Shown one piece after another: positions 4,267 through 61,187 of a stretch of DNA of 64,000 nt. A program made the translations under genes and the position numbers. The first letter of the stretch is position 1, and each line of letters opens with the position of its first letter. The DNA comes from Alphaproteobacteria bacterium (GTDB lineage Bacteria > Pseudomonadota > Alphaproteobacteria > Oceanibaculales > Oceanibaculaceae): positions 124,001 to 188,000 of the forward strand of contig JAHJHR010000017.1 of the NCBI GenBank assembly GCA_018823745.1, read 5' to 3'. The notes beneath the pieces are model-generated. The model searched no databases and was not told the DNA's origin. It worked only from the letters and a program-made list of their open reading frames with translations.

Positions 4267-4547
4267 CGCCTCGTCCTTCCCGGAATTCGTTCGATCTGTG
4301 TCCTTCGTTTTCAGATGGAGTGGTCAGGCCGGCTGTCAACTTTTTACTGATATGCGCAAGAAATCATCACGACAAACGGCAGAATTGCTCCTAGCGTAGG
4401 CGCATTAGAGCATCCGGATGTTACAAGAGCGCGTAATCGCCCGGTGAAAAATACTGGCATGGCGATTGCTCTGTTGCCACGCTCCGGCCGGCTTGCGCAG
4501 GCCGTCAGGACAGCAACAGGTTTGAAACAATTCTGGGAGTTTGCGAC

Positions 4548-5384
4548 ATGAAGAAACTGGCCGGCGCCCTCTGCGCCCTGCTGCTCTCTGCGGGCATTCC
4601 CCTGCAGGCGGATGCCCAGCAATTGAAGACCGGCGTCGACGGCACCTTTGCTCCGCACGCCATGCCGAATCTTGGCGGCGGCGTGGAAGGCTTCAACATC
4701 GACCTCGCCAACGAGATCGGCAAGCGCACCAAGCGCGGCGTCACCATCGAGGCGACGCAATTCTCCGGTTTGCTGCCAGGCCTGCAGGCCGGAACCTATG
4801 ACTTCATCGCCGCCCCGACCACGGTAACGGCGGAACGCGCGGAAAATCTGCTGTTCACCGAGGGCTACCTGAACACCGACTTCCAGTTCGTGGTCAAGGC
4901 CGGCACACCGGACATCAAGGATCTGGCCGAGCTGAAGGGCAAGGTGATCGCGGTCAATCGCGGTTCCGCCTATGACAGCTGGGCGCGCGGCCTGACTGAG
5001 AAGATTGGCTGGACGGTCGAGACCTATGGCACCAACACCGATGCCATCCAGGCCGTGATTTCCGGCCGCGCCTACGCCAATGTCGCCGGCAATACCGTGG
5101 CCGCCTGGGCCGTAAAGAAGAATCCGCAGATCGCCCTGTCCTATCTGCATTCGACCGGTCTGGTCTGGGCCGCACCGATCCGCAAGGGCAATGAGGAGAT
5201 GCGCAAGCTGGTCGAGACCGCCATCGAATGCATGAAGCTGGACGGCACCATGGCCGCGATGCACGAGAAATGGTTCGGCACCAAGCCCGCCGCCGGCTCC
5301 GCCGCCATCACCGTCTATCCCGGCTATGGCGTTCCCGGCATGGCCGGCTACGACCCGACCGAACACACCCCGGCCTGCAGCTGA
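4548..5384 (+). CDS. Amino-acid-type ABC transporter substrate-binding protein
   Basis: This is a 278-residue SBP_bac_3 (PF00497) periplasmic protein with a cleavable signal peptide (about residues 1-23, ending ADAQQ). It keeps the family pattern around [12 protein letters not shown] and the [12 protein letters not shown] segment, where an Arg usually holds the ligand carboxylate. It is the first gene of a four-gene operon with an ATPase and two permeases. A long hairpin follows the stop and separates it from the ATPase, which may keep its transcript more abundant. The exact amino acid cannot be told from sequence. Confidence 0.92.
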
Positions 5385-5396
5385 TAGTGCCCTTCC

Positions 5397-5439
5397 CTCT
5401 GTCGTCACCCTCGGGTTTGACCCAAGGGTGACGACAGAG
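5397..5439. repeat. REP-like perfect palindrome between binding protein and ATPase genes
   Basis: The arms at 5397-5411 and 5425-5439 are perfectly complementary over 15 bp (CTCTGTCGTCACCCT), and the inner GGGT-TTG-ACCC extends the stem. It lies 12 bp after the binding-protein stop and 40 bp before the ATPase start. The GTCACCC...GGGTGAC core resembles the palindromes at 44701-44803 and 52945-52977, so it belongs to a dispersed repeat family. No U-tract follows, so mRNA stabilisation is more likely than termination. Confidence 0.85.
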
Positions 5440-5479
5440 AGGATTCTTACGCCTGCTTACGAAAAACTGGAGCCTCCCC

Positions 5480-6223
5480 TTGCCTGATTCCGCCGCCATG
5501 CTCGATGTCGCCGGGCTGAGAAAAAGTTTCGGCGATATCGAGGTGCTGAAGGGCATCGACCTTGCCTTGCAGGCGCAGGAGCTGGTGTTCGTCATCGGCC
5601 CGTCGGGATCGGGCAAGAGCACCTTCCTGCGCTGCTGCAATCTGCTGGAACAGCCCAGCGAAGGCTCGATCCGAGTCGATAGCGTCGAGCTTCTGGACCC
5701 GAGGACCGACATCAACAAGATGCGCCAGCGCATCGGCATGGTGTTCCAGTCCTTCAACCTCTATCCGCATATGAATGCCGCCGGCAACATCATGCTGGCG
5801 CTGCGCAAGGTGCTGGGCAAAAGCAAGGCGGAGGCGCGGGAGATCGCCGAATCCTGCCTCGCCCGCGTGGGATTGGCCGAGAAGGCCGAGGCCTATCCGA
5901 ACGAATTGTCCGGCGGCCAGCAGCAGCGCGTCGCCATTGCCCGCGCCATGGCGCTGGAACCGAAGATCATGCTGTTCGACGAGCCGACATCGGCCCTCGA
6001 CCCGGAGCTGGTCGGCAGCGTGCTGACGGTGATGCGCGAATTGCGCGAGGCCGGCATGACGATGATGGTGGTCAGCCACGAGATGCGCTTCGCCCGAGAC
6101 GCGGCCGACCGCGTGGTGTTCATGGATGACGGGCTGATCGTCGAGCAGGGCACGCCCGACCAGATTTTTGGCGCGCCGCAGCAGGAGCGAACCCGCGCCT
6201 TCCTGACCAATTTCCAGGCCTGA
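5480..6223 (+). CDS. Amino acid ABC transporter ATP-binding protein
   Basis: The 247-residue GlnQ/HisP-type ATPase has Walker [10 protein letters not shown] (about 40-48), the signature LSGGQQQR, Walker [15 protein letters not shown] and the H-loop VVSHEM. It powers uptake with the two permeases that follow. The start chosen is TTG at 5480, because GGAG lies 7-8 bp upstream; the first in-frame ATG at 5498 has no ribosome site at a usable distance. The stop is 6 bp before the first permease. Confidence 0.95.
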
Positions 6224-6229
6224 GCAGAA

Positions 6230-6913
6230 ATGAACGGGCTTGATATCTTTCTCGACGCCTTCTTCAACCCGGCGGTGACGGCGAAATATCTGCCGGACAT
6301 CCTGCGTGGCATGGTGGTGACGGTGCAGGTGGCGCTGGCCGTTGTCGTCACCGGCATCAGCCTCGGGCTGGCGCTGGCCGCCCTGCGCAGCTTCCGTCTG
6401 CCGGGCGTCAATCTGCTGATCGTTTTCTTCGTCGATATCTTCCGCGCCCTGCCGCCGCTGATCGTCATCCTGCTGGTCTATTTCGGCCTGCCGAATGTCG
6501 GCATCAGCCTGCCCAGCTTCGCCGTGCTGTGGGTCGTGCTGTCGCTGGTGCTGGCCGCCTTTGCCGAAGAAATCTTCTGGTCCGGCATTCTGGCGATCCG
6601 CAAGGGGCAGTGGGAGGCCGCACGTTCCACCGGGCTGAATTTCGCCCAGACGCTGGCCCATGTGGTGCTGCCGCAGGCGGTGCGAATGACCGTGCCGCCC
6701 CTGACCAACCGCACCATCGCCATCACCAAGAACACGGCGCTGGGGGCGGTGATCGGCGTGCCGGAAATCCTGATGCAGGCGCAGACGGCACAAAGCTTTT
6801 CCGGCAATGCAACGCCGCTGTTGCTGGGCTCACTGGCCTATATCGCGCTGTTCGTGCCGGTGGTGATCCTGGGCCGCTGGCTGGAAACGCGCTTCGCCTG
6901 GGGGCGTGCCTGA
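6230..6913 (+). CDS. Amino acid ABC transporter permease, first subunit
   Basis: This is a 227-residue HisM/GlnP-type inner membrane protein with about five transmembrane helices. The cytoplasmic coupling (EAA) loop is seen as GQWEAARSTGLNFAQ. It forms a heteromeric channel with the product of the next gene. It starts 6 bp after the ATPase gene, and its stop is just before the next start, so expression is coupled. Confidence 0.94.
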   Translation: MNGLDIFLDAFFNPAVTAKYLPDILRGMVVTVQVALAVVVTGISLGLALAALRSFRLPGVNLLIVFFVDIFRALPPLIVILLVYFGLPNVGISLPSFAVLWVVLSLVLAAFAEEIFWSGILAIRKGQWEAARSTGLNFAQTLAHVVLPQAVRMTVPPLTNRTIAITKNTALGAVIGVPEILMQAQTAQSFSGNATPLLLGSLAYIALFVPVVILGRWLETRFAWGRA

Positions 6914-6914
6914 T

Positions 6915-7580
6915 ATGGACATGCTGGTCAGCCAGTTCTTCAATCTGGACATCATGCGCCAGGCCCTACCGCTGATCCTGCGCGGCTTCGGCATGACGCT
7001 GCTGCTCTGTGCGGCGGTCATCCCGCTCGGCCTGATCGGCGGGATGCTGATCGCGCTGGTCTGCCGCAGCCGGTATCGAGCGATCCGCTGGCCGGCCTTT
7101 GTGCTGGTGGATTTCTTCCGCGCCGTGCCGCCGCTGGTGCTGCTGATCTTCATCTATGCCGGCCTGCCCTTCATCGGGGTCCGGATGTCGCCCTTCGCGG
7201 CGGTATGCCTGGCGTTTTTCCTGAACACCGGGGCCTATTACGGCGAAATCTACCGCGCCGGCATCGACAGCATCGGCAGGGGGCAATGGGAAGCGGCGCG
7301 CTCCACCGGGCTGAGTGGGCGGCAGACGCTGGCCTACATCATCATCCCGCAGGCGGTGCGCAATGTGCTGCCCGATCTGGTGTCGAACACGGTTGAGGTG
7401 GTGAAGCTGACCTCCATCGCCAGCGTCGTGGCCCTGCCGGAACTACTCTATGCCGCCGATATGGCGCGGTCCGTCACCTATAACCCGTCCAGCCTGGTGA
7501 TGGCGGCGGCGCTGTATCTGGCGCTGCTCTGGCCCTGCGTCAGGCTGCTGAGCCGGCTGGAGCACAAGGTGGCGCGCTGA
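6915..7580 (+). CDS. Amino acid ABC transporter permease, second subunit
   Basis: This is the second HisQ/HisM-type permease, about 221 residues with five predicted membrane helices and the coupling loop GQWEAARSTGLSGRQ, nearly identical to that of its partner. I chose ATG 6915 because GGGGG lies about 10 bp upstream; a GTG at 6906 would sit directly on that site. The last 41 bp overlap the 3' end of the convergent ycaQ-like gene, an unusual tail-to-tail overlap. Confidence 0.93.
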   Translation: MDMLVSQFFNLDIMRQALPLILRGFGMTLLLCAAVIPLGLIGGMLIALVCRSRYRAIRWPAFVLVDFFRAVPPLVLLIFIYAGLPFIGVRMSPFAAVCLAFFLNTGAYYGEIYRAGIDSIGRGQWEAARSTGLSGRQTLAYIIIPQAVRNVLPDLVSNTVEVVKLTSIASVVALPELLYAADMARSVTYNPSSLVMAAALYLALLWPCVRLLSRLEHKVAR

Positions 7581-8793
7581 CCGCCGCCGTCAGCGCCGCC
7601 GACAGATCGCCGCCGGCCCCGACCGCGACGCCACCAAGCCCGAGCCATCCGGCCATGCGCCACAATTCTTCGGCCAGCGGCCCGGCAATCGCATCCGGTT
7701 TGCGCCCGGCTTCGGCATGGGCGGCGTGGACCCGCAACAGCCCCGCCGCCCGATCGGCCTTCAGGTCGACACGCGCGACCAGCCGGTCACCGAGCAGGAA
7801 GGGCAGCACATAATAGCCATGGAGCCGCTTTTCCGCCGGGGTGTAGATTTCCAGCCGATAGCGGAAATCGAACAGCCTCTCGGTGCGGTCACGCTCCCAG
7901 ACCAGCGAATCGAAGGGTGACAGCAGCGCCTGCGCCCGCCCCCGGCCGGGCAGCCGCGCCTCGGCATGCAGATAAGCCGGCTGCTTCCAGCCCGCCACGG
8001 TGACCGGCAGCACCTCGCCCGCCTCCACCAGTTCCTGCAACCGGTGGCGCGCATCCAGCAAATCGAGTCGGAAATAGTCCCGCAGATCGCTTTCCGTGGC
8101 GACGCCCATGCTGCACGCCGCGATGCGCATCAGGTCGCGCTGGGCATCTGCCTCGTCGGGTGTCGGCAGCGCGCTGATCGCCGGCGGCAGGACACGCTCG
8201 GTCAGGTCATAGACCCGCTCGAAATTGCGCCGGGTCGCGGTCGTCACCCGGCCGGCCCAGAACAGCCATTCCAGCGCCAGCTTGCCCTCGCTCCAGCCCC
8301 ACCATCCGCCGGAAGCCTTGCCGGCCATCGATAATTCGGAAGCGCCCAGCGGCCCTCTGTCGCGGATTTCGGCGATTACCTCATCGATATAGCCGCGCTT
8401 CTCCCGGCCGAAGCTGGCCAGGCCCTTGTAGATGCCCTGGCCCCGCGCCGCCCGCGCCATGCGCCAGCGCATCATCGGCTGCACCGCCAGCGGCATGTAG
8501 GATGCCTCATGCCCCCAATATTCGAACAGGCCGCGCCGCAGCCCCTGATAGGCATGACGGTCGAGCAATCCATGCTCGTACTGGCCCAGGCGGGAGAAGA
8601 TCGGCAGGTAATGCGAACGCACCAGTACATTCACCGAATCGATCTGGATCAGCCCGACCCGATCAAAGATGCGCCGGGCATGCTTCAGCCCCACAAGGCC
8701 AGGCCGGCGGTCGGCAAAGCCTTGCGCTGCCAGCGCGATGCGACGAGCCTCGCCGGGTGTCAGCCGCTCGACTGCTGTTGGGGTGAATGCCAT
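7540..8793 (-). CDS. YcaQ/AlkZ-like DNA glycosylase (winged-helix, HTH_42 family)
   Basis: The 417-residue protein matches the HTH_42 family, whose members AlkZ and YcaQ remove alkylated bases and unhook interstrand crosslinks. The catalytic motif of the YcaQ branch (Q-x-D) is present as Gln50-Ile51-Asp52 (IQIDSVNV); the AlkZ branch would have Q-x-Q. WGHEASYMPL and SPFDSLVWERDR are other family blocks. The C-terminal ~13 residues overlap the convergent ABC permease gene and look low-complexity (Ala/Pro), so the end may have lengthened by loss of an earlier stop. The role in crosslink repair is inferred from the family. Confidence 0.88.
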   Translation of the reverse strand: MAFTPTAVERLTPGEARRIALAAQGFADRRPGLVGLKHARRIFDRVGLIQIDSVNVLVRSHYLPIFSRLGQYEHGLLDRHAYQGLRRGLFEYWGHEASYMPLAVQPMMRWRMARAARGQGIYKGLASFGREKRGYIDEVIAEIRDRGPLGASELSMAGKASGGWWGWSEGKLALEWLFWAGRVTTATRRNFERVYDLTERVLPPAISALPTPDEADAQRDLMRIAACSMGVATESDLRDYFRLDLLDARHRLQELVEAGEVLPVTVAGWKQPAYLHAEARLPGRGRAQALLSPFDSLVWERDRTERLFDFRYRLEIYTPAEKRLHGYYVLPFLLGDRLVARVDLKADRAAGLLRVHAAHAEAGRKPDAIAGPLAEELWRMAGWLGLGGVAVGAGGDLSAALTAAVSAPPCAPAGSAA

Positions 8794-11849: not shown

Positions 11850-12965
11850 CTACACCGTAACCATGTGATTGTCCCAGTGTGCCGCCCCCAGGAAGGGCGT
11901 GTGCAGGCGCCTGGAGGCGCCGGTCAGGGCATCATGGGCTATGGCGTCGCCTTTGCCGCTGGAGAGCAGAAAGCGCCCTGTCCCGCCGGCGGCCGTCAGG
12001 CCGCAGCAATCGGCCATCTCCACCGAGCCGAGCAGGCGGCGCGAAGCGACGTCCCAGAAGATCGCCCGGCCGCCGCGCGGCGAGCTGACGCCGAGGATAG
12101 CGCCGCTGCTGTCGACCGCAGCACTGCCGCAGTAATTGTTCAGCCGGTTCAGCAGTGGGTCTGGCAGCTCCAGCAGCTCCAGACCACCGGACGAGGCCAG
12201 CGCAACCAGCGGCACCAGATCGCCGGACGGCCCCTCATACTGCATAGCGATGCCGACCTCTCCGGTCGCAGTCACCGCCATATGGCGCAGGCTGAGCTGG
12301 AACAGCTCCGGCTCCAGCCGGTGCTGGGCGGCGATCTCGCGGTTCTTCCAGTCGATGAAGGCGACTGAGGAATCCATCTCCATCAAATTCAGCTTGGCGC
12401 GCGGCGCGTCCGGGTGGGTCAGGATGCCACCATTGGCGACGATCACCGTGCGCCCGTCCGGCATCAGCCGGAGGTCATGCGGGTCCAGACCCCCGCTCGA
12501 CATCTCGCCCAGCCGGCGATAGCCATCGCTGGCGTCATAGATGCCGATCACACCTCTTTCGCCGGCATAATTCATCTCGGTCGCCAGCAGGATGCGACCG
12601 TCCTCAACATAGAGGCCGTGCCCGGCGAAGTTGCGGTCCTCGGCATTGGCGATGGTCTGGCGCACAGCACCTTCCGCCAGATCGACCACCAGCGCGAAAT
12701 TCCCCGGCCGGCGCGACATGAACACCGCTTCCGCCTTACCGGGCCGCAAGGCCGCGCCATGGCCACGCGCCGGCAGCGGCAGATCGAACACCCGGTTGCC
12801 GGCATCGTCGAAGGCAGCGGCATAGAAGTGCCCTGCATCATCGGCCCGGGCGCTGAGATAGAGCGGCTCCCGCGTGGCGGCGCGCAGCGGCAGCGGCAAG
12901 GCCCCGGCGGCGGCAAGGCCCGCCAAAGCGGTGCGGGTCAACAGCGTGCGGCGGGAGAGGATCAT
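11850..12965 (-). CDS. DUF1513 protein with twin-arginine signal, last gene of the imelysin cassette
   Basis: The ~371-residue protein begins with a Tat-like signal (SRRTLLTRTALAG) and continues with repeated beta-strand blocks such as GLDPHDLRLMPDG and GGILTHPD typical of DUF1513, a propeller-like periplasmic family of unknown activity. It follows the second imelysin gene with only 2 bp between stop and ATG 12965; a TTG 6 bp earlier is possible, but GGGGA is better spaced for the ATG. DUF1513 genes are regularly found with imelysin and DUF1111 genes, so a periplasmic role in iron acquisition is inferred. Confidence 0.87.
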   Translation of the reverse strand: MILSRRTLLTRTALAGLAAAGALPLPLRAATREPLYLSARADDAGHFYAAAFDDAGNRVFDLPLPARGHGAALRPGKAEAVFMSRRPGNFALVVDLAEGAVRQTIANAEDRNFAGHGLYVEDGRILLATEMNYAGERGVIGIYDASDGYRRLGEMSSGGLDPHDLRLMPDGRTVIVANGGILTHPDAPRAKLNLMEMDSSVAFIDWKNREIAAQHRLEPELFQLSLRHMAVTATGEVGIAMQYEGPSGDLVPLVALASSGGLELLELPDPLLNRLNNYCGSAAVDSSGAILGVSSPRGGRAIFWDVASRRLLGSVEMADCCGLTAAGGTGRFLLSSGKGDAIAHDALTGASRRLHTPFLGAAHWDNHMVTV

Positions 12966-12967
12966 GC

Positions 12968-14041
12968 TCAATCCCCGTCCATCGCGTTGAATCCGGCCGG
13001 AATATCCAGCACGGCGGTGAGGCGCTGGGTGAAAAGCTGCTTCATTGCCCCGGACTCCTTGACCAGCTGTTGCAGCCGGGCGCGCGCCGACTTGTCCTCC
13101 ACCGCCTGCTCCAGCGGCAGCGAGACCGAATTGGCGGTGGCGATGGTCTGGGTGAAGGCGCGGCGGAACAGATCGTCGAGCTTCTTGTCCGAAGCGGCGA
13201 CGGCAGCACTGAAGCCGCCGAGATACAGCGCCTGTCCGGCCTCCAGATTCAGCACGACATTGCGCATTGAGCGCGCGCTGCGCCAGGATTCGGCGAGACG
13301 CGGCCGGGCCTTATCGAGGGAGGCCCCCATCGGCCGGGCGATCTTGTGGTCGGCGACGATTTCCACTGTGCCATACAGGCTCTTGAACAGGTCGAGCGTG
13401 GCTTCCTTCGGCTCCTGGTAATGCGTGCCCGGCGTGCCGGCGATGGCAACCGTATGCGCGTAGCCGTCGGGCTTGGTCCAATCCTCCCGGATGTCCTTCG
13501 CCATGTCGGCGAGATTCCGGGAAATCGCCGTTACCAGCTTGCAGCGAAACGCCGAATCAGCACTTTTTGCAGTGAATTTCGCCAGCGCCTCTTCCTCGAA
13601 CAGCACCCGTTCCAGTGCCGGGAAACCCTGCACCGCGACACCACTGCTCTGGAAGGCATCCTGGGTGATCTGGCTTTCGTCGCGGCTTGCCAGCAACTCG
13701 CTCAGCTGTTTGCCGGCGCTGTTGCGCGGGTCGGGCCAGAAGGCCAGCCGCATCGAGCGCATGAACAGCTCAACCGGGCCGAAACGTATGTGCTGCACCG
13801 ATTGCCAGCCATCGACAGCGCCGTGGAAGGACTCCGTCAGCGCCGCATAGCCGGCCGCATCGGGGGCGGCGCAAAAAGCATCGGCCGATTGGCGCAGCGC
13901 CCCTGTGGCCTGTTCCAGGGCCTGATAGCGCGGGATCACCTGGGTCTCGACCAGTGCCTTGTTCAGCGCCGCATAATCCGTCGCCCAGGCCTCAGGGGAC
14001 GCCAGCAGGAACGCCAGGACCAGTGCGGTTTTCCGGATCAT
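12968..14041 (-). CDS. Imelysin-family periplasmic protein lacking the GxHxxE His
   Basis: The ~357-residue protein has a signal peptide (to about AWA, residue 20) and the all-helical imelysin (Peptidase_M75) fold, here resembling the shorter form. Imelysins bind iron or heme-iron in the periplasm and are not proven peptidases. At the GxHxxE motif this copy has GFPALE (139-144): the His is replaced by Pro141 while Glu144 is kept. The paralogue at 15670-16947 has the intact motif. ATG 14041 was preferred over ATG 14047 because AGGAG lies 7 bp upstream of the former. It starts 10 bp after the DUF1111 gene ends. Confidence 0.88.
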   Translation of the reverse strand: MIRKTALVLAFLLASPEAWATDYAALNKALVETQVIPRYQALEQATGALRQSADAFCAAPDAAGYAALTESFHGAVDGWQSVQHIRFGPVELFMRSMRLAFWPDPRNSAGKQLSELLASRDESQITQDAFQSSGVAVQGFPALERVLFEEEALAKFTAKSADSAFRCKLVTAISRNLADMAKDIREDWTKPDGYAHTVAIAGTPGTHYQEPKEATLDLFKSLYGTVEIVADHKIARPMGASLDKARPRLAESWRSARSMRNVVLNLEAGQALYLGGFSAAVAASDKKLDDLFRRAFTQTIATANSVSLPLEQAVEDKSARARLQQLVKESGAMKQLFTQRLTAVLDIPAGFNAMDGD

Positions 14042-14051
14042 GCCCATTCTC

Positions 14052-15584
14052 CTATAGCGAGTTCAGGAAGGCGAGCAGAGCGTCCCGGTCTTCCTTGCTC
14101 ATATCAACAACGCGCTGCTTCGCCGCTTCGGCCTCACCGCCATGCCAGAGGATCGCTTCCAGCAGATTGCGGGCGCGGGAATCGTGCAGGAAATAGGTGT
14201 GGCCGCTGACGGTCTCGGTCAGGCCGATGCCCCAGAGCGGCGCCGTGCGCCATTCCCGGCCATCCGCCTTGGCCTCCGGCCGATTATCGGCCAGCCCCTC
14301 GCCCATATCGTGCAGCAGCAGGTCGCTATAGGGCCAGATCAGCTGGAAGGCCTGTTCCTCGCCGTCGAAATCGCGGGCCGTCACGAATTTCGGCCGGTGA
14401 CAGGCGATGCAGCCGCTCTCATAGAACATCTGTTTGCCGCGCAGCACCTTCGGGTCATCCACATCGCGCCGCGCCGGCACGCCGAGATTGCGGGCATAGA
14501 AGGTGACGAGGTCCATCATCTGCTTCGTCACCTCGGTGCCTTCCTCGGCATCGTCGCCGGTCGGTGCTTCGCGGCAGGCCGTCTGCGCCGGCGTGCAATC
14601 GCCCGAGGAGGCAGCGACCAGTGGCGTCGAAAGGCCAATATCACCGGCAAAGGCATGTGCCGATTGCTGGCGCACTGTCGGCTCGCCCGCCTTCCAGCCA
14701 AAGCGACCGAGCGACAGCCCGACCTTCACACTGTCCCAGACCCGGTTCGGACGGCCGGAAATGCCGTCGCCGTCCTTATCATCCGGGTCGGCCCAGGCCA
14801 GAATGTCTTCTTCGGGAATGGCTTCCAGCAGGCCCAGCCCGGTCATCGGCGACGCCACGCGCGGCGACAGCATAATTTCCGGATGCATCGGCCCGTAATT
14901 CAGATTGGCGACGCTATAGGTGGGCTTGCGCAGGTTGACCACTTCGCCATCGGCCAGTGTGACCGGCACCTCCTCATATTCGATGACCATGTCGCCTTCC
15001 GGCTGATGGCCCTGGATCGCGAAATTCTGCAGCTGCGTGCCATAGGACGGGTCGCCGATCAGGGAGACCTCGCCCTTCGCCAGCAGAGAGTGCTGCGCCT
15101 CATCCTGCGGCGGGATCGACAGGCGCAGGAACAGGGAGACCGCCTGCTCGCCCGCAGCGGGCGGCGATCCCCGCCCATCCTTCAGATGGCATCCCTGGCA
15201 GGAGCGCGAATTGAACAGCGGCCCCAGCCCGTCAGAAGACAGGGTGGAGCTGGGAGATGACACCCATATCTTGCGGAAAATGCCGTCACCGACCTTGAAG
15301 TCCAGCTGCTTCTCGAACGGCATGTTGCCGGAGGGGTGGGAGAAGATGCTGGTGTTCAGCGGCTTGTAGACCGTCGCCCCGCCGCCCTGGTTCTGCTCGA
15401 ATTTCTCCGCTGCGGAAAAATCTGTCGTCGGCGCGGTGACAGCGGCAATGCGCGCCTTTTCCGCCTTGCCACCATCAGAGGCGGCCCCCGCCGCAGTGAC
15501 CGCCAACCCCAGAAATGCTGCGAGAATCCCGGCTGTAAAGCCCAGCGAAACGATACCCTGCCAACCTGATCGAAACATTACCAT
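14052..15584 (-). CDS. Di-heme c-type cytochrome oxidoreductase (DUF1111)
   Basis: The ~510-residue secreted protein has a signal anchor (about 5-35) and two c-heme sites, CQGCH (about 129-133) and CIACH (about 392-396), plus an acidic loop DPDDKDGDGISG near 267 that is common in DUF1111 and may bind calcium. The family is related to di-heme peroxidases and called DHOR. In the imelysin cassette it could change the redox state of iron in the periplasm; this is inference. The start is uncertain: ATG 15584 and ATG 15578 both lack a good ribosome site, and a TTG exists at 15605. Confidence 0.88.
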   Translation of the reverse strand: MVMFRSGWQGIVSLGFTAGILAAFLGLAVTAAGAASDGGKAEKARIAAVTAPTTDFSAAEKFEQNQGGGATVYKPLNTSIFSHPSGNMPFEKQLDFKVGDGIFRKIWVSSPSSTLSSDGLGPLFNSRSCQGCHLKDGRGSPPAAGEQAVSLFLRLSIPPQDEAQHSLLAKGEVSLIGDPSYGTQLQNFAIQGHQPEGDMVIEYEEVPVTLADGEVVNLRKPTYSVANLNYGPMHPEIMLSPRVASPMTGLGLLEAIPEEDILAWADPDDKDGDGISGRPNRVWDSVKVGLSLGRFGWKAGEPTVRQQSAHAFAGDIGLSTPLVAASSGDCTPAQTACREAPTGDDAEEGTEVTKQMMDLVTFYARNLGVPARRDVDDPKVLRGKQMFYESGCIACHRPKFVTARDFDGEEQAFQLIWPYSDLLLHDMGEGLADNRPEAKADGREWRTAPLWGIGLTETVSGHTYFLHDSRARNLLEAILWHGGEAEAAKQRVVDMSKEDRDALLAFLNSL

Positions 15585-52991: not shown

Positions 52992-55049
52992 CTACCAGCG
53001 CATCTGCGCGCCGACAAAGACCGCCCGGCCATCGCCGGGGTTGAACAGTGCTGAATTCGGCGTGGCACTGGTCGCCACGCTGACCGAGGAGATGTAGCGC
53101 TCGTCGGTCAGGTTGCGGGCATCGAGGAAAACCGACCAGCCGCGCGGATCATCGTAGCCGAGCTTCAGGCCGAGCAGCGCATAGGGGCGCGTCTCGGTGG
53201 TGTTGGCGTTGTCGACGTAATAGGCCTGCGGCACCCATTCGACATTCGGCCCGACATAGAAGCCGGTCGGATGGTCGTAGCGCAGTTCCGCCCGATAATA
53301 GTGGCGTGGCGCGCCGGGCAGCTCGTTATCGCCATAGACCGGGTCGCCGTCGAAGGAGAAGTCGCTGAAGGTATAGGCCTGACGCAGCGTCAGCCGGTCG
53401 CCGCCGCGCTCGGTGGCGAGCAGCCCCTCGGCCAGACGGTAATCCAGCCCCAGTTCCAGCCCCTGATGGATCGTCCGGTCGGCGTTCAGGGCATAGCTCT
53501 GGCCGTTCGAGGCGGTAAAGAGCTGGATTTCGTTCTGCATCCAGGCGCGATACACCGCGACATCCCAGGTGATCGGCCCATGACTGCCGCGCGTGCCGAG
53601 TTCCAGCGTCACCGCCTCCTGCGGGTCGACATCGCCGATCGGCGCGGTGGCCGTCGGGCTGAGATCGGACAGCGTCGGGATTTCCGTGCTGCGCGACAGA
53701 TTGCCGAAGACCTGCAAATCCGGCCGGGCCTGCCACAGCAGGCCAAGGCGCGGGTTGAAGCTGGTGAAGCTGTCGTCAAAGCTGGCATTGCCATCGCTGA
53801 GGAACTTGTCCTCGACCTCGCGGGTGGCATAGCCGGCCTGGGCACCCAGAATCAGCGCCAGATCATTGCGCAGCCAGGTGCGGTTCTCGCCATAGATATC
53901 CGCATTCTGGGCCGTCTCGAAGGATTTGAAGGTCAGCGCCCCTTTCTGCCCCCGGACATTGGCATAGCGCAGATTATCGTTGGTCCCCTGCCCCAGTTTC
54001 ACGCCGATCAGGTTTTCCTGCTTCAGACCAAAGGCCTGGCCGTCGGTCTCGTATTCAGCGAAGACGCCGTAATCCAGAACGGTGTTGTCCAGCACCTGGA
54101 AGATCGGGTGGAACAGGTGCCGGCTGACAAAGTAGCCGCCAAAATTCACCGTCCCGTCGTCAAGCGCCACCGAGGTCTTGCTGCCCAGTCGGATCGATTC
54201 GATATCGCGCTTGTAGTTGTTGACCAGATTGCCGGCTGCCGCCGCCTTCGGGTTGTTCAGCGCCTGGTCGCGGCTGACCGATCCGGGGATTTCCTGGTCG
54301 ATGTCGTTATAGGCGATGAACAGTCGCGTCTCGACGGTATCGGACAGGCGGACACCGAAATTGCTGTTCAGGCGGATGTTGTTCTGTTCGTTAAGCTGGC
54401 GGTAGCCATCCTGCTGGATCGTGGTGGCGGTGGCGTAATAATCCCAGTTCTCGCCATAGCGCCCCATGGCCAACTGGCCCCGGCGATAGCCGTCGCTGCC
54501 GATCTCGAACCGGGTCAGCACCCCGTCCAGATCACGGCCGGTTGGCGTATGCACATTGATCGCCCCGCCCAGCGAGGCAGAGCCATAGCGCAGGGCGTTC
54601 GCGCCCTTGAACACTTCGATATAGCGGATGTTCAGCGGGTCGATTTCCTGGAAATCGCCGCTGCCATCGGCCAGATTGATCGGTATGCCATCCTGTAACA
54701 GCGTCACGCCGCGCAGATGGAAATTGCGCGACAGGCCGGAGCCGCGAATCGACAGCCGCGAATCCTCGCCGAATTTGGGCTGCACAAAGACACCCGGTGT
54801 GTAATCCAGCATGTCCTTCAGCGTGACGGCCCGGCCATCGCGGAATTCCTCCGAGGTGACCAGATCGACGCCGCCCGGAATTTGCTGGATTTTCTCTTTG
54901 GCCTCAGCGGCCGTTGGCTGTGTCAGGCTGCGCGGCGGTGCGGGCACCTCGATGCGCAGTTCCGGAAGGGTCTGGGTCTGGGCCAGCGCCCCGGTCCCGA
55001 CAAGTGCGATCACGCCGGTCAGGGCCATGCCGAGGGAAAGCCGGCTCAT
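52992..55049 (-). CDS. TonB-dependent outer membrane receptor, probably copper-related
   Basis: The 685-residue protein has a signal peptide (to about ALAQ, residue 24), a plug domain (VTLKDMLDYTPGVFVQPKFG, ENNIRL-like loops) and a 22-strand barrel ending in the aromatic C-terminal Met-Arg-Trp. It takes up a metal complex or small ligand with TonB energy. Its ATG overlaps the stop of a YcnI-like gene by 4 bp. That partner and a DUF2946 gene are common in copper loci, so copper is the likely ligand; siderophore-type receptors cannot be excluded. Confidence 0.9.
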   Translation of the reverse strand: MSRLSLGMALTGVIALVGTGALAQTQTLPELRIEVPAPPRSLTQPTAAEAKEKIQQIPGGVDLVTSEEFRDGRAVTLKDMLDYTPGVFVQPKFGEDSRLSIRGSGLSRNFHLRGVTLLQDGIPINLADGSGDFQEIDPLNIRYIEVFKGANALRYGSASLGGAINVHTPTGRDLDGVLTRFEIGSDGYRRGQLAMGRYGENWDYYATATTIQQDGYRQLNEQNNIRLNSNFGVRLSDTVETRLFIAYNDIDQEIPGSVSRDQALNNPKAAAAGNLVNNYKRDIESIRLGSKTSVALDDGTVNFGGYFVSRHLFHPIFQVLDNTVLDYGVFAEYETDGQAFGLKQENLIGVKLGQGTNDNLRYANVRGQKGALTFKSFETAQNADIYGENRTWLRNDLALILGAQAGYATREVEDKFLSDGNASFDDSFTSFNPRLGLLWQARPDLQVFGNLSRSTEIPTLSDLSPTATAPIGDVDPQEAVTLELGTRGSHGPITWDVAVYRAWMQNEIQLFTASNGQSYALNADRTIHQGLELGLDYRLAEGLLATERGGDRLTLRQAYTFSDFSFDGDPVYGDNELPGAPRHYYRAELRYDHPTGFYVGPNVEWVPQAYYVDNANTTETRPYALLGLKLGYDDPRGWSVFLDARNLTDERYISSVSVATSATPNSALFNPGDGRAVFVGAQMRW

Positions 55050-55591
55050 TTCGCCCCCCGCTTTTCCAGAAGGCGCAACACCGGCGCCGGGCCCATCTGC
55101 ATGCCCGCGCCATGTTCATGCGTATGGGTGCCTTCCTCAGCGCTCCAGTGCCAGGATTTGCCGCCATCGCATTCCTGCACGGTGACGAAAGGCAGTGCCG
55201 TGCCCGGATCTGCATCCGGCAGCTTCAGCGACAGAGCGATTTCATCGAACTGCCAGTCTGGCAGGGTATTGCCGCTCCAGATGATCTGGGTGATGCGCTC
55301 GGTCAGCATCATGCCATGGCCGGCAGGAACCGGTTCCGGCAGCTTTTCCTTCACGAGCTCGATCTGCCAGCCCGGCTTTGCCTGCGGCCGGGCGGTCAGG
55401 ATCTGCTCGGGCATTGCAACGATGATGCGGTTGGTGGCAGCACCATTGCAGCCATGGGTGATGCGGATGGTGACTTTCTGATAGCTGTCGGCCGGGGCCT
55501 GGCGCGGCTCGACAACGGCATGGGCGGAGGCGGCGGGAATGCCCGCGCCCATCGCAGCCAGAAGGGCCGCGACGCGGAGTGCGTTACGCAT
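55046..55591 (-). CDS. YcnI-like DUF1775 copper-binding periplasmic protein
   Basis: The 181-residue protein has a signal peptide with a likely cut ASA|HAVV, which would leave His as the mature N-terminus. In YcnI-type proteins that His with an acidic residue and a Trp forms a mono-histidine copper brace. PADSYQKVTIRITHGCNG is the conserved DUF1775 block. A His/Met-rich stretch (THTHEHGAGMQMG) near the C-terminus could also bind copper. It lies between the DUF2946 and TonB receptor genes. Confidence 0.9.
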   Translation of the reverse strand: MRNALRVAALLAAMGAGIPAASAHAVVEPRQAPADSYQKVTIRITHGCNGAATNRIIVAMPEQILTARPQAKPGWQIELVKEKLPEPVPAGHGMMLTERITQIIWSGNTLPDWQFDEIALSLKLPDADPGTALPFVTVQECDGGKSWHWSAEEGTHTHEHGAGMQMGPAPVLRLLEKRGAK

Positions 55592-55678
55592 GAATTATAC
55601 TCCAAACGGAGGGATCGACAGCGCGCGGCCGCACGGGTGCTTCCCGGCGGGCAGGCGCGGTTTCAGTCTAGGGGTCGA

Positions 55679-56098
55679 TCAACCGATGGAGGGTGGCGCG
55701 CGGGATTCAGCCCAGCCCGTCTCGCTGGCCAAGGACGGTACAGCGACGATGGCAGGGACATAGGCGATGGATACCGGGTAGAAAACCGGCACAATGACGA
55801 CAGATGGCGGCAGGACAGCCGCCATCTGCTGCGCGCCCAGGCAAAGCGGGCAATGCAGGACACTGGCGGTTTCATCCGATGTGCCATTCCCGGCAGCGCC
55901 ATCAAGGCGCACCAGCTTGTAGCCATCGGCGGTGCAGAGTGCCAGGGTTCGGCCACCCGCATCGCCCAGGCCATGGGCCGGCATCAGGAAGGGCGACAGC
56001 GCCTGCAACCAGACAGACAGCAGCACCACCGCGGCGGTAATCAACCACCCCGGCCGGTGCGTCACCTGTTCGTTGTATGCTGTCTGACTCTGGTACAT
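55679..56098 (-). CDS. DUF2946 family protein
   Basis: The ~139-residue protein has one N-terminal membrane helix (about 15-35), a central LHCPLCLGAQQ Cys motif and a hydrophobic C-terminal segment, as in DUF2946 proteins found in copper and TonB loci. ATG 56098 has AGGGGA 6 bp upstream; the frame is open further upstream but there lies antisense to the ModA-like gene. It is the first gene of the operon, with a clear promoter just ahead. The molecular role is unknown. Confidence 0.8.
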   Translation of the reverse strand: MYQSQTAYNEQVTHRPGWLITAAVVLLSVWLQALSPFLMPAHGLGDAGGRTLALCTADGYKLVRLDGAAGNGTSDETASVLHCPLCLGAQQMAAVLPPSVVIVPVFYPVSIAYVPAIVAVPSLASETGWAESRAPPSIG

Positions 56099-56116
56099 CC
56101 CCATTCCCCTGAATAC

Positions 56117-56268: not shown

Positions 56269-57081
56269 ATGAAGCATGCCCACAGACTGGGGTTTTCCAG
56301 CCTGATCCTTGCCCTTTTGGTCTCCGCAGAATGCCGTCCGGCCATGGCCGATGAGGTGATCCTGCGCGCCGCCGGCAGCCTGAAGGCGGCCTTGACGGAG
56401 GTGACCCAGGCTTTCGAGAAACAGAGCGGCCATGCGGTCCGGCTGGATTTCGGCCCCTCGGGTCTGCTGCGCGAACGCATCCTGTCCGGCGAGCCGACCG
56501 ATGTCTTCGCCTCGGCCAACATGGCGCATCCCGAGGATATCGCCGTGCAGCGCGGCGGCAAGGTCCTCCCCTTCGCCACCAACATGCTGTGCGCGCTGGT
56601 CCAGCCGGATATCGCCGTGACCCCGAACACGCTGCTGGAGCAGATGCTCTCCGCCGACATCCGCCTCGGCACCTCCACCCCGCAGGCCGACCCCTCGGGC
56701 GATTATGCCTGGATGCTGTTCGACAAGTCCGATTCCCTGAAACCCGGCGCGGCAGCAGCGCTGAAGGACAAGGCGCTGACACTGACCGGAGGCGCCAATT
56801 CACCCAAGCCGCCAGCCGACCGCACGGTCTACAGCCTGGTCATGGAACGCCGCGACGCCGATATCTTCCTGACCTATTGTACCAATGCCGTGCTGGCGGC
56901 CCAGGAGGTGCCCGGGCTGCGCATCGTCCAGATACCCGATGCCCTGTCCGTTGGCGCCACCTACGGCCTGCTGGTGCTGAAGGAGCGGCAACCGGCCATC
57001 GATCTCGGCAATTTCATCACCGGTTCGGAAGGTCAGGCCATCCTCGCCGCCTATGGTTTCGGCATGCCCCCCGCCAAATGA
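56269..57081 (+). CDS. ModA-like molybdate/tungstate-binding periplasmic protein
   Basis: The 270-residue protein has a signal peptide (about 1-27, AMADE) and the ModA pattern: RAAGSLKAALTEV with the oxyanion-binding Ser, FGPSGLLRERI, GEPTDVFASAN and YCTNAVLA. No modB or modC follows; instead come a molbindin and a FecBCD-like ABC system. GGGAGGAGG precedes the start. An alternative ligand such as another oxyanion is possible. Confidence 0.85.
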   Translation: MKHAHRLGFSSLILALLVSAECRPAMADEVILRAAGSLKAALTEVTQAFEKQSGHAVRLDFGPSGLLRERILSGEPTDVFASANMAHPEDIAVQRGGKVLPFATNMLCALVQPDIAVTPNTLLEQMLSADIRLGTSTPQADPSGDYAWMLFDKSDSLKPGAAAALKDKALTLTGGANSPKPPADRTVYSLVMERRDADIFLTYCTNAVLAAQEVPGLRIVQIPDALSVGATYGLLVLKERQPAIDLGNFITGSEGQAILAAYGFGMPPAK

Positions 57082-57105
57082 GCCTGTTTCAAAGGATCGA
57101 AAATC

Positions 57106-57312
57106 ATGAAATTAAGCGCGCGCAACGTCCTGAAGGGCACCGTTCTGGAAGTGAAAAAAGGTCAGACCACGGCTCATGTTAAGCTCGAACTCAGCCCCGG
57201 AGTCGTCGTCACAGCCTCGATCACCAATGAGGCAGTGGACGATCTGGCACTGAAAGTTGGCGATCAGGCCAGCGCCATCGTCAAATCCTCCGACGTGATC
57301 ATCGGCAAATAG
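57106..57312 (+). CDS. Molbindin (Mop/TOBE-domain protein)
   Basis: This 68-residue protein is a single Mop domain: SARNVLKGTVLEVKKG at the start, TASITNEAVDDLALKVGD in the middle and AIVKSSDVIIGK at the end. Such proteins assemble as hexamers that store molybdate or tungstate in the cytoplasm. It lies 24 bp after the ModA-like gene, which fixes the likely ligand of the locus. Confidence 0.93.
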   Translation: MKLSARNVLKGTVLEVKKGQTTAHVKLELSPGVVVTASITNEAVDDLALKVGDQASAIVKSSDVIIGK

Positions 57313-57319
57313 ACAGCGC

Positions 57320-58345
57320 ATGCCCCGGCTGGGTTTCCACCTTCTGGCCTGCGCCCTACTGCTGATCGGCGCGGCGCGGGCCGATGCCGGCCAGGTCGAG
57401 GATTCGGCAGGCCGGGTGGTGGCGGTGCCGCAGCGGGTGGAGCGCGTATTTGCCGCCGGGCCGCCCGCCGCAATCGTGCTGTATACGCTGGCACCGGAAA
57501 AACTGCTGGGCTGGACCCGCGCCCTGTCACCGGCGGAGGATGCCTATCTGCCGGAGCGCTGGCGCGGCCTGCCCGGACATGGCCGGCTGACCGGACGCGG
57601 CAATTCCGCCAATCTGGAAGCGGTATTGACGCTGCGCCCCGATCTGGTAGTCGATCTGGGATCGGTCGGGCCGACCTTCGTTACCCTGGCCGACCGGGTG
57701 CAGGAACAGACGGGGATACCGACGCTGCTGCTGGGCGGGCGGCTGGATGAACTGCCTGATGCCTACCGACTGCTCGGCACCGTCCTGGGCCGCGAGGCGC
57801 GCGCCAATCTGCTGGCCACCTATATCGAGGACATGCTGGATGCGGTTCAGCGCCGCATCGCCAGCGTGCCGCCCGCGGAGCGCCCGCGATTCTATTATGC
57901 GCGAGGGCCACGCGGCCTGGATACGGCACTGACCGGGTCGATCAATGTCGAGGCAATGGATTTCGTCGGCGCCCGCAATGTCGCCGGCGAGGCCATTGGG
58001 AAAGGCGGGCTGGCTGCCGTCTCGCTGGAACAAATCATTGCCTGGAACCCGTCGGTCATCATCACCGCAGAACCCGGCTTTGCCCGTCAGGTGCGCGACA
58101 ATCCGAACTGGCGGACGATCAGCGCCGTGCGTCAGGACAATATCCTGCTGGCGCCGCAGTTCCCCTTTCCCTGGATTGATTTTCCGCCCTCGGTGAACCG
58201 CGTGATCGGCGTCCGCTGGCTGGCGGCGAAACTTTACCCGGCGCTGTTTCCCGAACCCCTGGAACCGATCGTGCGGGGCTTCTATTCCCTGTTCTATGAC
58301 CGCCCTCTCAGCGATGCCGAAATGTCGGCCCTGATTGCCCCCTGA
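57320..58345 (+). CDS. Type II ABC importer substrate-binding protein (FepB/BtuF/MolA type)
   Basis: The 341-residue protein has a signal peptide (to about ADAGQ) and the PF01497 two-lobe fold: RVVAVPQRVERVFAAGPPAA, LRPDLVVDLG, and WNPSVIITAEPGF. The family binds iron-siderophores, heme or cobalamin, but Haemophilus MolA of this family binds molybdate and tungstate. It is 7 bp after the molbindin gene and heads the FecBCD-like part, so molybdate or tungstate is plausible. Confidence 0.9.
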   Translation: MPRLGFHLLACALLLIGAARADAGQVEDSAGRVVAVPQRVERVFAAGPPAAIVLYTLAPEKLLGWTRALSPAEDAYLPERWRGLPGHGRLTGRGNSANLEAVLTLRPDLVVDLGSVGPTFVTLADRVQEQTGIPTLLLGGRLDELPDAYRLLGTVLGREARANLLATYIEDMLDAVQRRIASVPPAERPRFYYARGPRGLDTALTGSINVEAMDFVGARNVAGEAIGKGGLAAVSLEQIIAWNPSVIITAEPGFARQVRDNPNWRTISAVRQDNILLAPQFPFPWIDFPPSVNRVIGVRWLAAKLYPALFPEPLEPIVRGFYSLFYDRPLSDAEMSALIAP

Positions 58346-58355
58346 TGGCAGGCTG

Positions 58356-59375
58356 ATGCGCCCTTCCCTGGGTCCGGCCGGCGGCATCCTGCTGGCGCTG
58401 GCATTTCTGGCGCTGGCCGGTCTGGTGGCCTTCAGCATCGGCGCCTATCCGGTATCCCTGCCGGAGCTGGCGCGCTGGTTCTGGTCGCTGGCTACCGGCC
58501 AGCCATCGGACCTCCCGGACTCGACCCTGTTGGTCATCACCCAGATACGCGGCCCACGCATTGTCACGGCCATGCTGGTCGGGGCCTCGCTGGCCGCCGC
58601 CGGCGCCGCCTATCAGGGGCTGTTCCGCAACCCGCTGGTCTCCCCCGACATACTGGGCGTGTCCTCCGGCGCGGCGCTGGGGGCCGTGCTCGGCATTTTC
58701 CTGTCCCTGCCCTTCCTAGCGATCCAGGGCATGGCGTTTCTGGGCGGGCTGGGCGCGGTTGGCATCGTCTATGGCATCGCGGCGACCCTGCGCGGCCGCG
58801 ACCCGATCCTGATCCTGGTGCTGGCCGGCATTGTCATCGGCACGCTGCTGGGCTCCGGCATCTCGATGATCAAGGTGCTGGCCGATCCCTATAACCAGTT
58901 GCCGGCCATCACCTTCTGGCTGCTGGGCAGCCTGTCTGCGGTCAATCGCGACGATCTGCTGACCGTGCTGCCGCTCACCCTGCTCGGCCTCGTGCCGCTG
59001 GCCCTGCTGCACTGGCGGTTGAACGTCATGAGTTTCGGCGAGGAGGAGGCGCGCGCGCTGGGCGTCAACACCACCCGCGTGCGCCTGGCCGTCATCGCGG
59101 CAGCGACCCTGATGACGGCAGCCGTGGTGGCGATCAGCGGCGTGGTCGGCTGGATCGGCCTGGTTGTCCCGCATCTGGCGCGGCTGCTGGTCGGCCCCTC
59201 CTTCGGCCGGCTGCTGCCCACCGCGACCTTGTTCGGCGCTGCCTTCCTGCTGCTGGTCGATACGCTGGCGCGTACGCTGGGGCCGACGGAAATTCCCTTG
59301 GGCGTGCTGACCGCGATCATTGGCGCACCGATCTTCATCTGGTTGCTGGCGACCAGCCGCCGGCACTGGCAATAG
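58356..59375 (+). CDS. FecCD-family ABC transporter permease
   Basis: The 339-residue permease has about ten membrane helices and FecCD blocks GAAYQGLFRNPLVSPDILGVSSG, GISMIKVLADP, and VVAISGVVGWIGLVVPHLARLL. The preferred start is ATG 58356 after the binding-protein stop; a TTG at 58335 overlaps that gene. It forms the channel with the next gene's ATPase. Confidence 0.94.
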   Translation: MRPSLGPAGGILLALAFLALAGLVAFSIGAYPVSLPELARWFWSLATGQPSDLPDSTLLVITQIRGPRIVTAMLVGASLAAAGAAYQGLFRNPLVSPDILGVSSGAALGAVLGIFLSLPFLAIQGMAFLGGLGAVGIVYGIAATLRGRDPILILVLAGIVIGTLLGSGISMIKVLADPYNQLPAITFWLLGSLSAVNRDDLLTVLPLTLLGLVPLALLHWRLNVMSFGEEEARALGVNTTRVRLAVIAAATLMTAAVVAISGVVGWIGLVVPHLARLLVGPSFGRLLPTATLFGAAFLLLVDTLARTLGPTEIPLGVLTAIIGAPIFIWLLATSRRHWQ

Positions 59376-59380
59376 CTGCC

Positions 59381-60145
59381 ATGACCGTCATCCCTCTCAC
59401 TCTCGACGCGCTGGCCTTCGGCTATGGCCGGGTCAGTGTCGGCGGCCCCCTGACACTGGAACTGCGCCCCGGCGAGACGCTGGCCCTGCTGGGACCGAAT
59501 GGCAGCGGCAAGACAACGCTGTTCAAGACGATCCTGGGCCTGCTGCCGCCGCTGGGGGGCCGGGTGCTGGCCGGAGGGGCGGACACGGCCCGCTGGTCGC
59601 CGGCCGAGCGGGCACGCCTGTTCGGCTATGTGCCGCAATCCTCGCCCGGTTTCTTTCCCTTCTCGGTGACGGAGGTCGTGCTGATGGGGCGTACCGCGCG
59701 CATCGGCACCTTTGCCGCCCCCTCGGCGAAGGATCGTGCCATCGCCGCCGGCATGCTGGACCGGCTGGGCATTGCCCATCTGGCCGGGCGCGACTTTCCC
59801 CGGATCAGCGGCGGCGAGCGGCAATTGGTGCTGATCGCCCGGGCGCTGACCCAGGAACCCGCCATACTGGTGCTGGACGAGCCGACCGCGAGCCTGGATT
59901 TCGGCAATCAGCGGCTGATTCTGGAGACGATCCGCCACCTGTCCAATCAGGGCCTGTCGATCATCCTGTCGACACATCACCCGGACGAGGCCTTCGCCAT
60001 CGCCGACAAGGCCGCCTTGCTGCGCGCCGGCCAGCTTCTTGGCGCCGGCCCTGTTGCCGAGACACTGACAGCACCAGCGCTCTCCGCCCTCTACGGCGTG
60101 CCGGTCACGCTGCACCGGCTCGGCGACAGGATGGTCTGCCTCTAG
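59381..60145 (+). CDS. FecE-type ABC transporter ATP-binding protein
   Basis: The 254-residue ATPase has Walker A GPNGSGKTT (about 38-46), Q-loop VPQSSPG, signature ISGGERQ, Walker B ILVLDEPTAS and H-loop STHHPDE. It is 5 bp after the permease gene and completes a type II importer. The last gene of the molybdate-linked operon. Confidence 0.95.
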   Translation: MTVIPLTLDALAFGYGRVSVGGPLTLELRPGETLALLGPNGSGKTTLFKTILGLLPPLGGRVLAGGADTARWSPAERARLFGYVPQSSPGFFPFSVTEVVLMGRTARIGTFAAPSAKDRAIAAGMLDRLGIAHLAGRDFPRISGGERQLVLIARALTQEPAILVLDEPTASLDFGNQRLILETIRHLSNQGLSIILSTHHPDEAFAIADKAALLRAGQLLGAGPVAETLTAPALSALYGVPVTLHRLGDRMVCL

Positions 60146-60206: not shown

Positions 60207-61187
60207 ATGGTGTCTGCTCGGTCAGTGTCCTCGTGCCAAACGGATTTCCCCGACGTGCAGACCGAAACCAAGCCTTATTCCGGCCCGCTTGTCGGGGCGC
60301 TGATGATGATCTCCTCCTGTGCGCTGATCGCCGCAACCAGCCTGATGGCCAAGGCGATGGGGCCGCTGGGCTCGCAGGCGCTGGGATTCGAGGGATCGCC
60401 TCTGCATCCGCTGCAAGTCAGTGCCGGGCGGTTCTGCTTCGCCTTTCTGGCTCTGGTGATTGTCACGGCGGTTTTGCGGCCCCGGTTCCACGGCATCCAG
60501 TGGCGGTTGCACAGTGCGCGCAGCCTGTTCGGCTGGGGCGGGGTAAGCTGCATGTTCGCCGCTGCCGCGCATATGAAGCTGGCCGATGCGATGGCGATCA
60601 GCTTCCTCAGCCCGCTTTTCACCATGATGCTGGCCATTCCCTTCCTGGGCGAGAAGGTCGGCCCCTGGCGCTGGGTTGCGGCCGCCATCGCGCTGGGCGG
60701 GGCACTGCTGATCGTCCGACCGGGGACGGAGGCCTTCCAGATCGTCGCGCTGATAGCGCTGGCTGCCGCCATATTGATGGGCGCCGAGGCGATCCTGATC
60801 AAGCGCCTGACCAGCGCCGAGCCGCCGCTGCAGATCCTTGTGGTGAATAACGGCATCGGCGCGCTGATCTCGCTGGCCGGTGTCGCCTTTGTCTGGTCGG
60901 CCCCGACCGGGGCGCAATGGAGTGTGCTGGTGATGATCGGCCTGACCATGGTGGTCGCCCAGGCCTTCTTCCTGCAGGCGATGCGTCGCGCCGAAGCCAG
61001 CTTCGTCATCCCGTTCTATTACGCGACGCTGATCTTCGCCAGCTTCTACGATTTCGTCGTCTTCGGCGATCTGCCGACCGCGATCAGCGCGACTGGCGCC
61101 GCCCTGATCGTCGGCGGCGCGCTGCTGCTGGTCTGGCGCGAACACCGCGCCCGCCAGCGTGCCGCCCGACAGCCCGCATCAGGATGA
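60207..61187 (+). CDS. EamA-family DMT transporter
   Basis: The 326-residue protein has ten membrane helices in two EamA repeats (LADAMAISFLSPLFTMMLAIPFLGEKVG and RRAEASFVIPFYYATLIFAS). The ATG at 60207 has no clear ribosome site; a GTG at 60255 is an alternative that would remove a polar 16-residue N-terminus. Members export amino acids or other metabolites. It is 61 bp after the ABC operon and converges with the cytochrome bd genes; its substrate is unknown. Confidence 0.88.
   Translation: MVSARSVSSCQTDFPDVQTETKPYSGPLVGALMMISSCALIAATSLMAKAMGPLGSQALGFEGSPLHPLQVSAGRFCFAFLALVIVTAVLRPRFHGIQWRLHSARSLFGWGGVSCMFAAAAHMKLADAMAISFLSPLFTMMLAIPFLGEKVGPWRWVAAAIALGGALLIVRPGTEAFQIVALIALAAAILMGAEAILIKRLTSAEPPLQILVVNNGIGALISLAGVAFVWSAPTGAQWSVLVMIGLTMVVAQAFFLQAMRRAEASFVIPFYYATLIFASFYDFVVFGDLPTAISATGAALIVGGALLLVWREHRARQRAARQPASG

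Follow-up and report, generated by a model that had tools for sequence, protein, structure and literature searches.

A predicted Mol-type molybdate/tungstate importer operon containing a molbindin gene in an alphaproteobacterium

In the locus described here, a ModA-like periplasmic protein and a molbindin are encoded directly ahead of a type II ABC importer that has its own binding protein, which raises the question of what this importer carries and which permease the ModA-like protein serves. The locus was examined within a window of 64,000 nucleotides, the window being the whole stretch of DNA that was analysed. The reading that we favour, with a probability of approximately 0.82, is that the operon encodes a molybdate/tungstate (Mo/W) importer of the Mol (MolBCA) type known from Haemophilus, in an alphaproteobacterial branch to which a Mop store has been added, and that it serves the cell as a second-line route for these metals.

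Gene content and family membership

Five open reading frames of the window are arranged head to tail on the plus strand between positions 56269 and 60145:

56269-57081, plus strand: ModA2, 270 aa; ModA-like periplasmic oxyanion-binding protein of the mol-associated PRK03537 branch
57106-57312, plus strand: Mop, 68 aa; single-domain molbindin (TOBE), predicted cytoplasmic Mo/W store
57320-58345, plus strand: MolA/FecB-like class III binding protein of the type II importer, 341 aa; PF01497
58335-59375, plus strand: MolB/FecCD-like permease, 346 aa; PF01032, 285.8 bits
59381-60145, plus strand: MolC/FecE-like ATPase, 254 aa; PF00005

The intergenic gaps are, in order, 24, 7, -11 and 5 bases, and ModB and ModC genes are absent from the locus; exact coordinates and family matches thus bear out the initial annotation, which had described five genes with short gaps on one strand and a ModA-like protein lacking its ModB/ModC partners. 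The permease gene starts with TTG, an in-frame ATG 21 bases downstream being an alternative. Pfam assigns the last three genes to the Peripla_BP_2, FecCD and ABC_tran families and finds no C-terminal TOBE domain on the ATPase, which in NCBIfam matches FecE/BtuD/heme-type ATPases. An Rfam scan found no Moco riboswitch, and no clear or convincing ModE box was seen when the upstream regions were read by eye. An EamA-type transporter gene (60207-61187) begins 61 bases after the ATPase gene and also follows it in a genome of the same genus (G003); such a gene was not found beside the importer among the 80 named relatives surveyed below.

Mop scores 71.6 bits against TIGR00638 (NCBIfam; curated cut-off 55) and matches PDB entries 1h9j, 1gug and 1fr3. 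It resembles the Mop molbindins (1gug, 1fr3) in being a single 68-residue domain above the curated cut-off, and differs from them in being encoded within an importer operon. No other free-standing Mop is present in the genome, the only further match being the tail of ModC.

The closest solved relative of the permease is Haemophilus influenzae MolB (HI1471, 2nq2; 232.6 bits), above the haemin permease 5b57 (190 bits). The best PDB matches of the FecB-like protein by sequence are 4pag, 4ovk and, in third place, MolA (3psa), while Foldseek analysis of its AF2 model (pLDDT 90.1) returned 4pag, 4ovk, 2etv and then 3psa, MolA here being fourth. The fold is shared with MolA at a distance (22% identity, Foldseek), and the alignment with MolA shows nothing equivalent to the invariant motifs RLTGRG and ARGP. 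Arg89 and Arg195 are likewise invariant in the FecB-like protein. Since iron-binding proteins follow close behind the nearest matches, structure alone does not name the substrate of the FecB-like protein.

Gene neighbourhoods of the importer in relatives

Because relatives (80 named loci) were fetched using the FecB-like protein alone, the neighbour counts are not biased by the query, although related sequences are counted many times among these loci. At least one Mo/W gene (ModA2, Mop, TupA, canonical ModA, MOT1 or ModE) is present in the fetched flanks of 58 of the 80, and in 35 of the 50 loci having at least 8 kb on both sides. Individually, TupA was counted in 33 loci, Mop in 32, ModA2 in 27, ModE in eight, canonical ModA in seven and MOT1 in three, and MoeA-like genes occur in 13. 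Directly upstream of FecB lies Mop in 18 loci and ModA2 in five. The presence of TupA within approximately 9 kb in 33 of 80 relatives compares with about 0.5% expected, by our own arithmetic, if a 4 Mb genome holds a single tup locus. The association of the importer with Mo/W genes is far above chance, and the linkage recurs across many families with changing gene order; the repeated co-occurrence of the ABC genes with modA or mop runs counter to the outcome that the initial annotation had named as fatal to its reading, namely that they would never be found together. Approximately 20 of the 80 relatives have no Mo/W gene in reach, many of them Methylobacterium and Bradyrhizobium. As a control, three FecB paralogues from the same genus were examined and none (0/3) has a Mo/W neighbour.

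Among the richest clusters is that of Aquibaculum arenosum (L079), with the order tupB-tupC-tupA-modA2-mop-MOT1-fecB-fecC-fecE; other rich clusters have a ModE-type HTH gene or trmO in place of MOT1, and plasmid relatives have Mop, ModA or MoeA/Glp as neighbours. Within the genus of the window genome, tup adjoins modA2-fecBCE without mop in G001, modA2-fecBCE is found without mop and with tup elsewhere in G003, and G002 has tup while neither ModA2 nor the FecB-like protein rises above threshold.

Further neighbours were noted in these clusters. A MOT1-type molybdate transporter gene lies directly upstream of the FecB-like gene in L060, L079 and L104 (PF16983 is shown for L079). The tRNA m6t6A methyltransferase gene trmO occurs within 9 kb in 23 of the 80 relatives (L059, L063, L067 and L119 among them), and in 19 it immediately precedes the FecB-like gene. 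In the Bosea clusters L067, L071, L077, L078 and L082, ModA2 is encoded twice in tandem, with tupA on one side and trmO on the other. An importer cluster is also carried by Azospirillum brasilense.

Cargo of the importer and partner of ModA2

One subfamily of TonB receptors adjoins the importer in certain relatives (positions are those of each fetched locus):

L117, Mesorhizobium, 6501-8684: importer-adjoining TonB receptor
L034, genome G267, 3728-5959: importer-adjoining TonB receptor, with Mop downstream
L182, Paracoccus, 4069-6162: importer-adjoining TonB receptor
L188, Bartonella, 4513-6723: importer-adjoining TonB receptor
L203, Escherichia coli plasmid-collection record, 12340-14310: TonB receptor in the order fecBCE-methyltransferase-modD-TonB receptor, which is also that of record L204

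This subfamily is found in lineages without ModA2 beside the importer. These proteins could be candidate outer-membrane receptors for Mo/W (or a chelate), acting in active uptake; alternatively, the TonB-linked relatives could be systems for iron that split off from the Mo/W branch. The broader proposal that the importer family serves Mo/W uptake across the Proteobacteria, coupled in some lineages to a dedicated TonB receptor, is tentative and on balance doubtful; if the coupling were true, it would mean active uptake of Mo/W, or of a Mo/W chelate, across the outer membrane.

The same receptors bear on the possibility that the importer carries chelated Mo/W, in a molybdophore-type complex, and not the free oxyanion. 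Large chelates are the usual cargo of type II importers, and a receptor of this subfamily is encoded beside the importer in several lineages, with Mop close by in one case (L034) and with modD and a methyltransferase in E. coli; however, neither a receptor of this kind nor a synthesis gene is present at the window locus, MolBCA is a carrier of free molybdate (PMC4031551), and neighbours such as ModA2, TupA and MOT1 suggest free oxyanions, so that a chelate as cargo is distinctly unlikely.

The window does contain a TonB receptor gene, which lies with DUF1775 (YcnI-like) and DUF2946 genes on the minus strand at 52992-56104, divergent from the operon. It was considered as a part of the system and rejected, as it belongs to another subfamily and is grouped with the DUF1775 and DUF2946 genes. 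Such a set is one that we would expect in copper handling, and these genes look like a separate, possibly copper-related locus.

The partner of ModA2 is a separate matter. ModA2 exceeds the curated NCBIfam cut-offs of NF002917 (337 bits against 264) and TIGR01256 (67.3 against 62.5), and also matches PF13531; the top Foldseek matches of its AlphaFold (AF2) model (pLDDT 93) are ModA/WtpA with bound MoO4/WO4. In a tree with long branches, an arbitrary root and bootstrap values that are not fully settled, a branch with 99/95 support splits the ModA2 rows from canonical ModA and takes in the Pasteurella ModA encoded beside a MolABC-like operon. Of the ligand positions of E. coli ModA, which we take to be Ser12, Ser39, Ala125, Val152 and Tyr170, three of five (Ser12, Ser39 and Tyr170) are kept in the alignment of the window protein and the Ala125 position is Ser; opposite Val152 stands Arg (Arg or other residues among ModA2 proteins), next to an insertion and in an uncertain part of the alignment. 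ModA2 thus shares with the ModABC molybdate importer the ModA fold and these three residues, and differs in its separate, well-supported branch and in a locus without ModB/ModC.

Targeted searches of the genome placed a complete modABC set, which has its own ModA and is accompanied by modE, on contig C12, and a separate tupBCA on contig C3, thereby also settling whether modBC exists elsewhere in the genome, as the initial annotation had proposed to check. ModA2 is therefore not the only ModA of the cell, which has three sets of Mo/W transport genes. Five molybdopterin-oxidoreductase-type and nine xanthine-dehydrogenase-type matches indicate that the genome uses Mo; a targeted search of it found no AOR-type tungsten enzymes. 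In a reverse survey of 24 genomes anchored on ModA2, an adjacent FecB homologue was found in 17, tupBCA without an adjacent FecB in five and neither in two.

It might be argued that ModA2 hands molybdate straight to the type II FecCD permease, two unrelated binding proteins then serving one permease, as gammaproteobacterial relatives have ModA2 beside fecBCE without tup, and tup lies elsewhere in both the window genome and G003. Against this, the fold of ModA2 is that of ModA and differs from the class III fold seen in partners of type II permeases, and ModA2 is found also with tupBCA in the absence of fecBCE. The FecB-like protein, for its part, has two invariant Glu residues, E100 and E237, which would match the docking pair of Glu residues in class III binding proteins. 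Direct feeding is accordingly very unlikely, and on modelled structure ModA2 appears an unlikely feeder of a type II permease; a type I partner is at least as likely given the tupBC neighbours. As the fold of ModA2 is wrong for a type II permease and its gene often lies beside tupBCA, its probable partner is a type I permease, either TupBC or ModBC.

The notion that the importer is an ordinary one for ferric siderophores (or haem or B12), lying by chance beside Mo/W genes, draws on the fold class, on PGAP naming in relatives and on the TonB receptors encoded next to it in Paracoccus, Bartonella, Mesorhizobium and E. coli, but it is disfavoured by the neighbouring genes, with Mo/W genes in 58 and TonB receptors in three of the 80 loci, by a permease nearest to MolB, and by a window TonB receptor of another subfamily that is separated from the operon by the DUF1775 and DUF2946 genes, and we regard it as highly improbable.

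Relation to known systems and implications

A published table lists HI1469 modA beside HI1470-1472 molABC and HI1473-1475 modD-salX-cysU, under the name of secondary molybdenum transporter (PMC3928620), and HI1469-HI1473 were deleted as the mol cluster in a study that assigns MolBCA to high and ModBC to low external molybdate (PMC4031551). Pasteurella has the order MolA-MolB-MolC-ModA with homologous proteins, whose aligned parts are 33% (binding protein), 40% (permease) and 37% (ModA) identical to those of the window. The layout with two unrelated binding proteins is therefore already known from the Haemophilus mol cluster, and the initial annotation's view of it as unusual is not supported. 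Both the H. influenzae cluster (HI1469-HI1475) and the window operon encode a type II importer and a class III binding protein belonging to it, next to a ModA of the same branch (for the branch, the Pasteurella counterpart was tested); in both genomes modABC lies elsewhere, and MolB of this cluster is the best solved match of the window permease. In contrast to that cluster, mop lies inside the window operon, tup genes occur elsewhere in the genome, the binding protein is nearer to 4pag than to MolA, and the system is a predicted one. The TupABC tungstate importer adjoins modA2-mop-fecBCE in many relatives and is complete in the window genome on another contig, but is a type I importer encoded outside the window operon.

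The family matches, the MolB-nearest permease and the neighbours in 58 of 80 relatives lend support to the initial proposal that the locus serves Mo/W and encodes a type II importer resembling MolBCA, and molybdate/tungstate as predicted substrate is well supported at the level of sequence. From this evidence we infer substrate, direction of transport, docking and the partner of ModA2 as follows. The FecB-like protein would capture molybdate/tungstate in the periplasm and, once loaded, dock on the dimeric FecCD permease, with transport driven by the FecE-like ATPase in a type II mechanism, and Mop would buffer the imported metal in the cytoplasm. ModA2 would act as a second periplasmic oxyanion binder of separate fold, probably serving a type I permease (TupBC or ModBC); TupBC is a candidate, as it adjoins ModA2 in many relatives and is encoded elsewhere in the window genome. 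In serving a type I permease ModA2 may thus widen the concentration or oxyanion range covered rather than feed the type II permease.

Among the open-licence papers searched, we found none describing a broad alphaproteobacterial branch whose neighbours include Mop, Tup, MOT1 and TrmO, or the misnaming of the Mol-type family as an iron importer. A comparative survey of Mo use, in which the known ABC importers of prokaryotes were taken to be ModABC, WtpABC and TupABC, ended with 278 bacteria that use Mo but have no known importer (PMC6147048). If our reading is true, a Mol-type family would be widespread in Alphaproteobacteria, many annotations of the importer as 'iron ABC transporter', its PGAP name in relatives, would be corrected, and the family may fill part of this gap. 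Some relatives also possess W or Mo enzymes that are of applied interest, among them the W-dependent formate dehydrogenase in Methylorubrum, for which a moeA1-mobB-tupBCA cluster has been described (PMC13197769).
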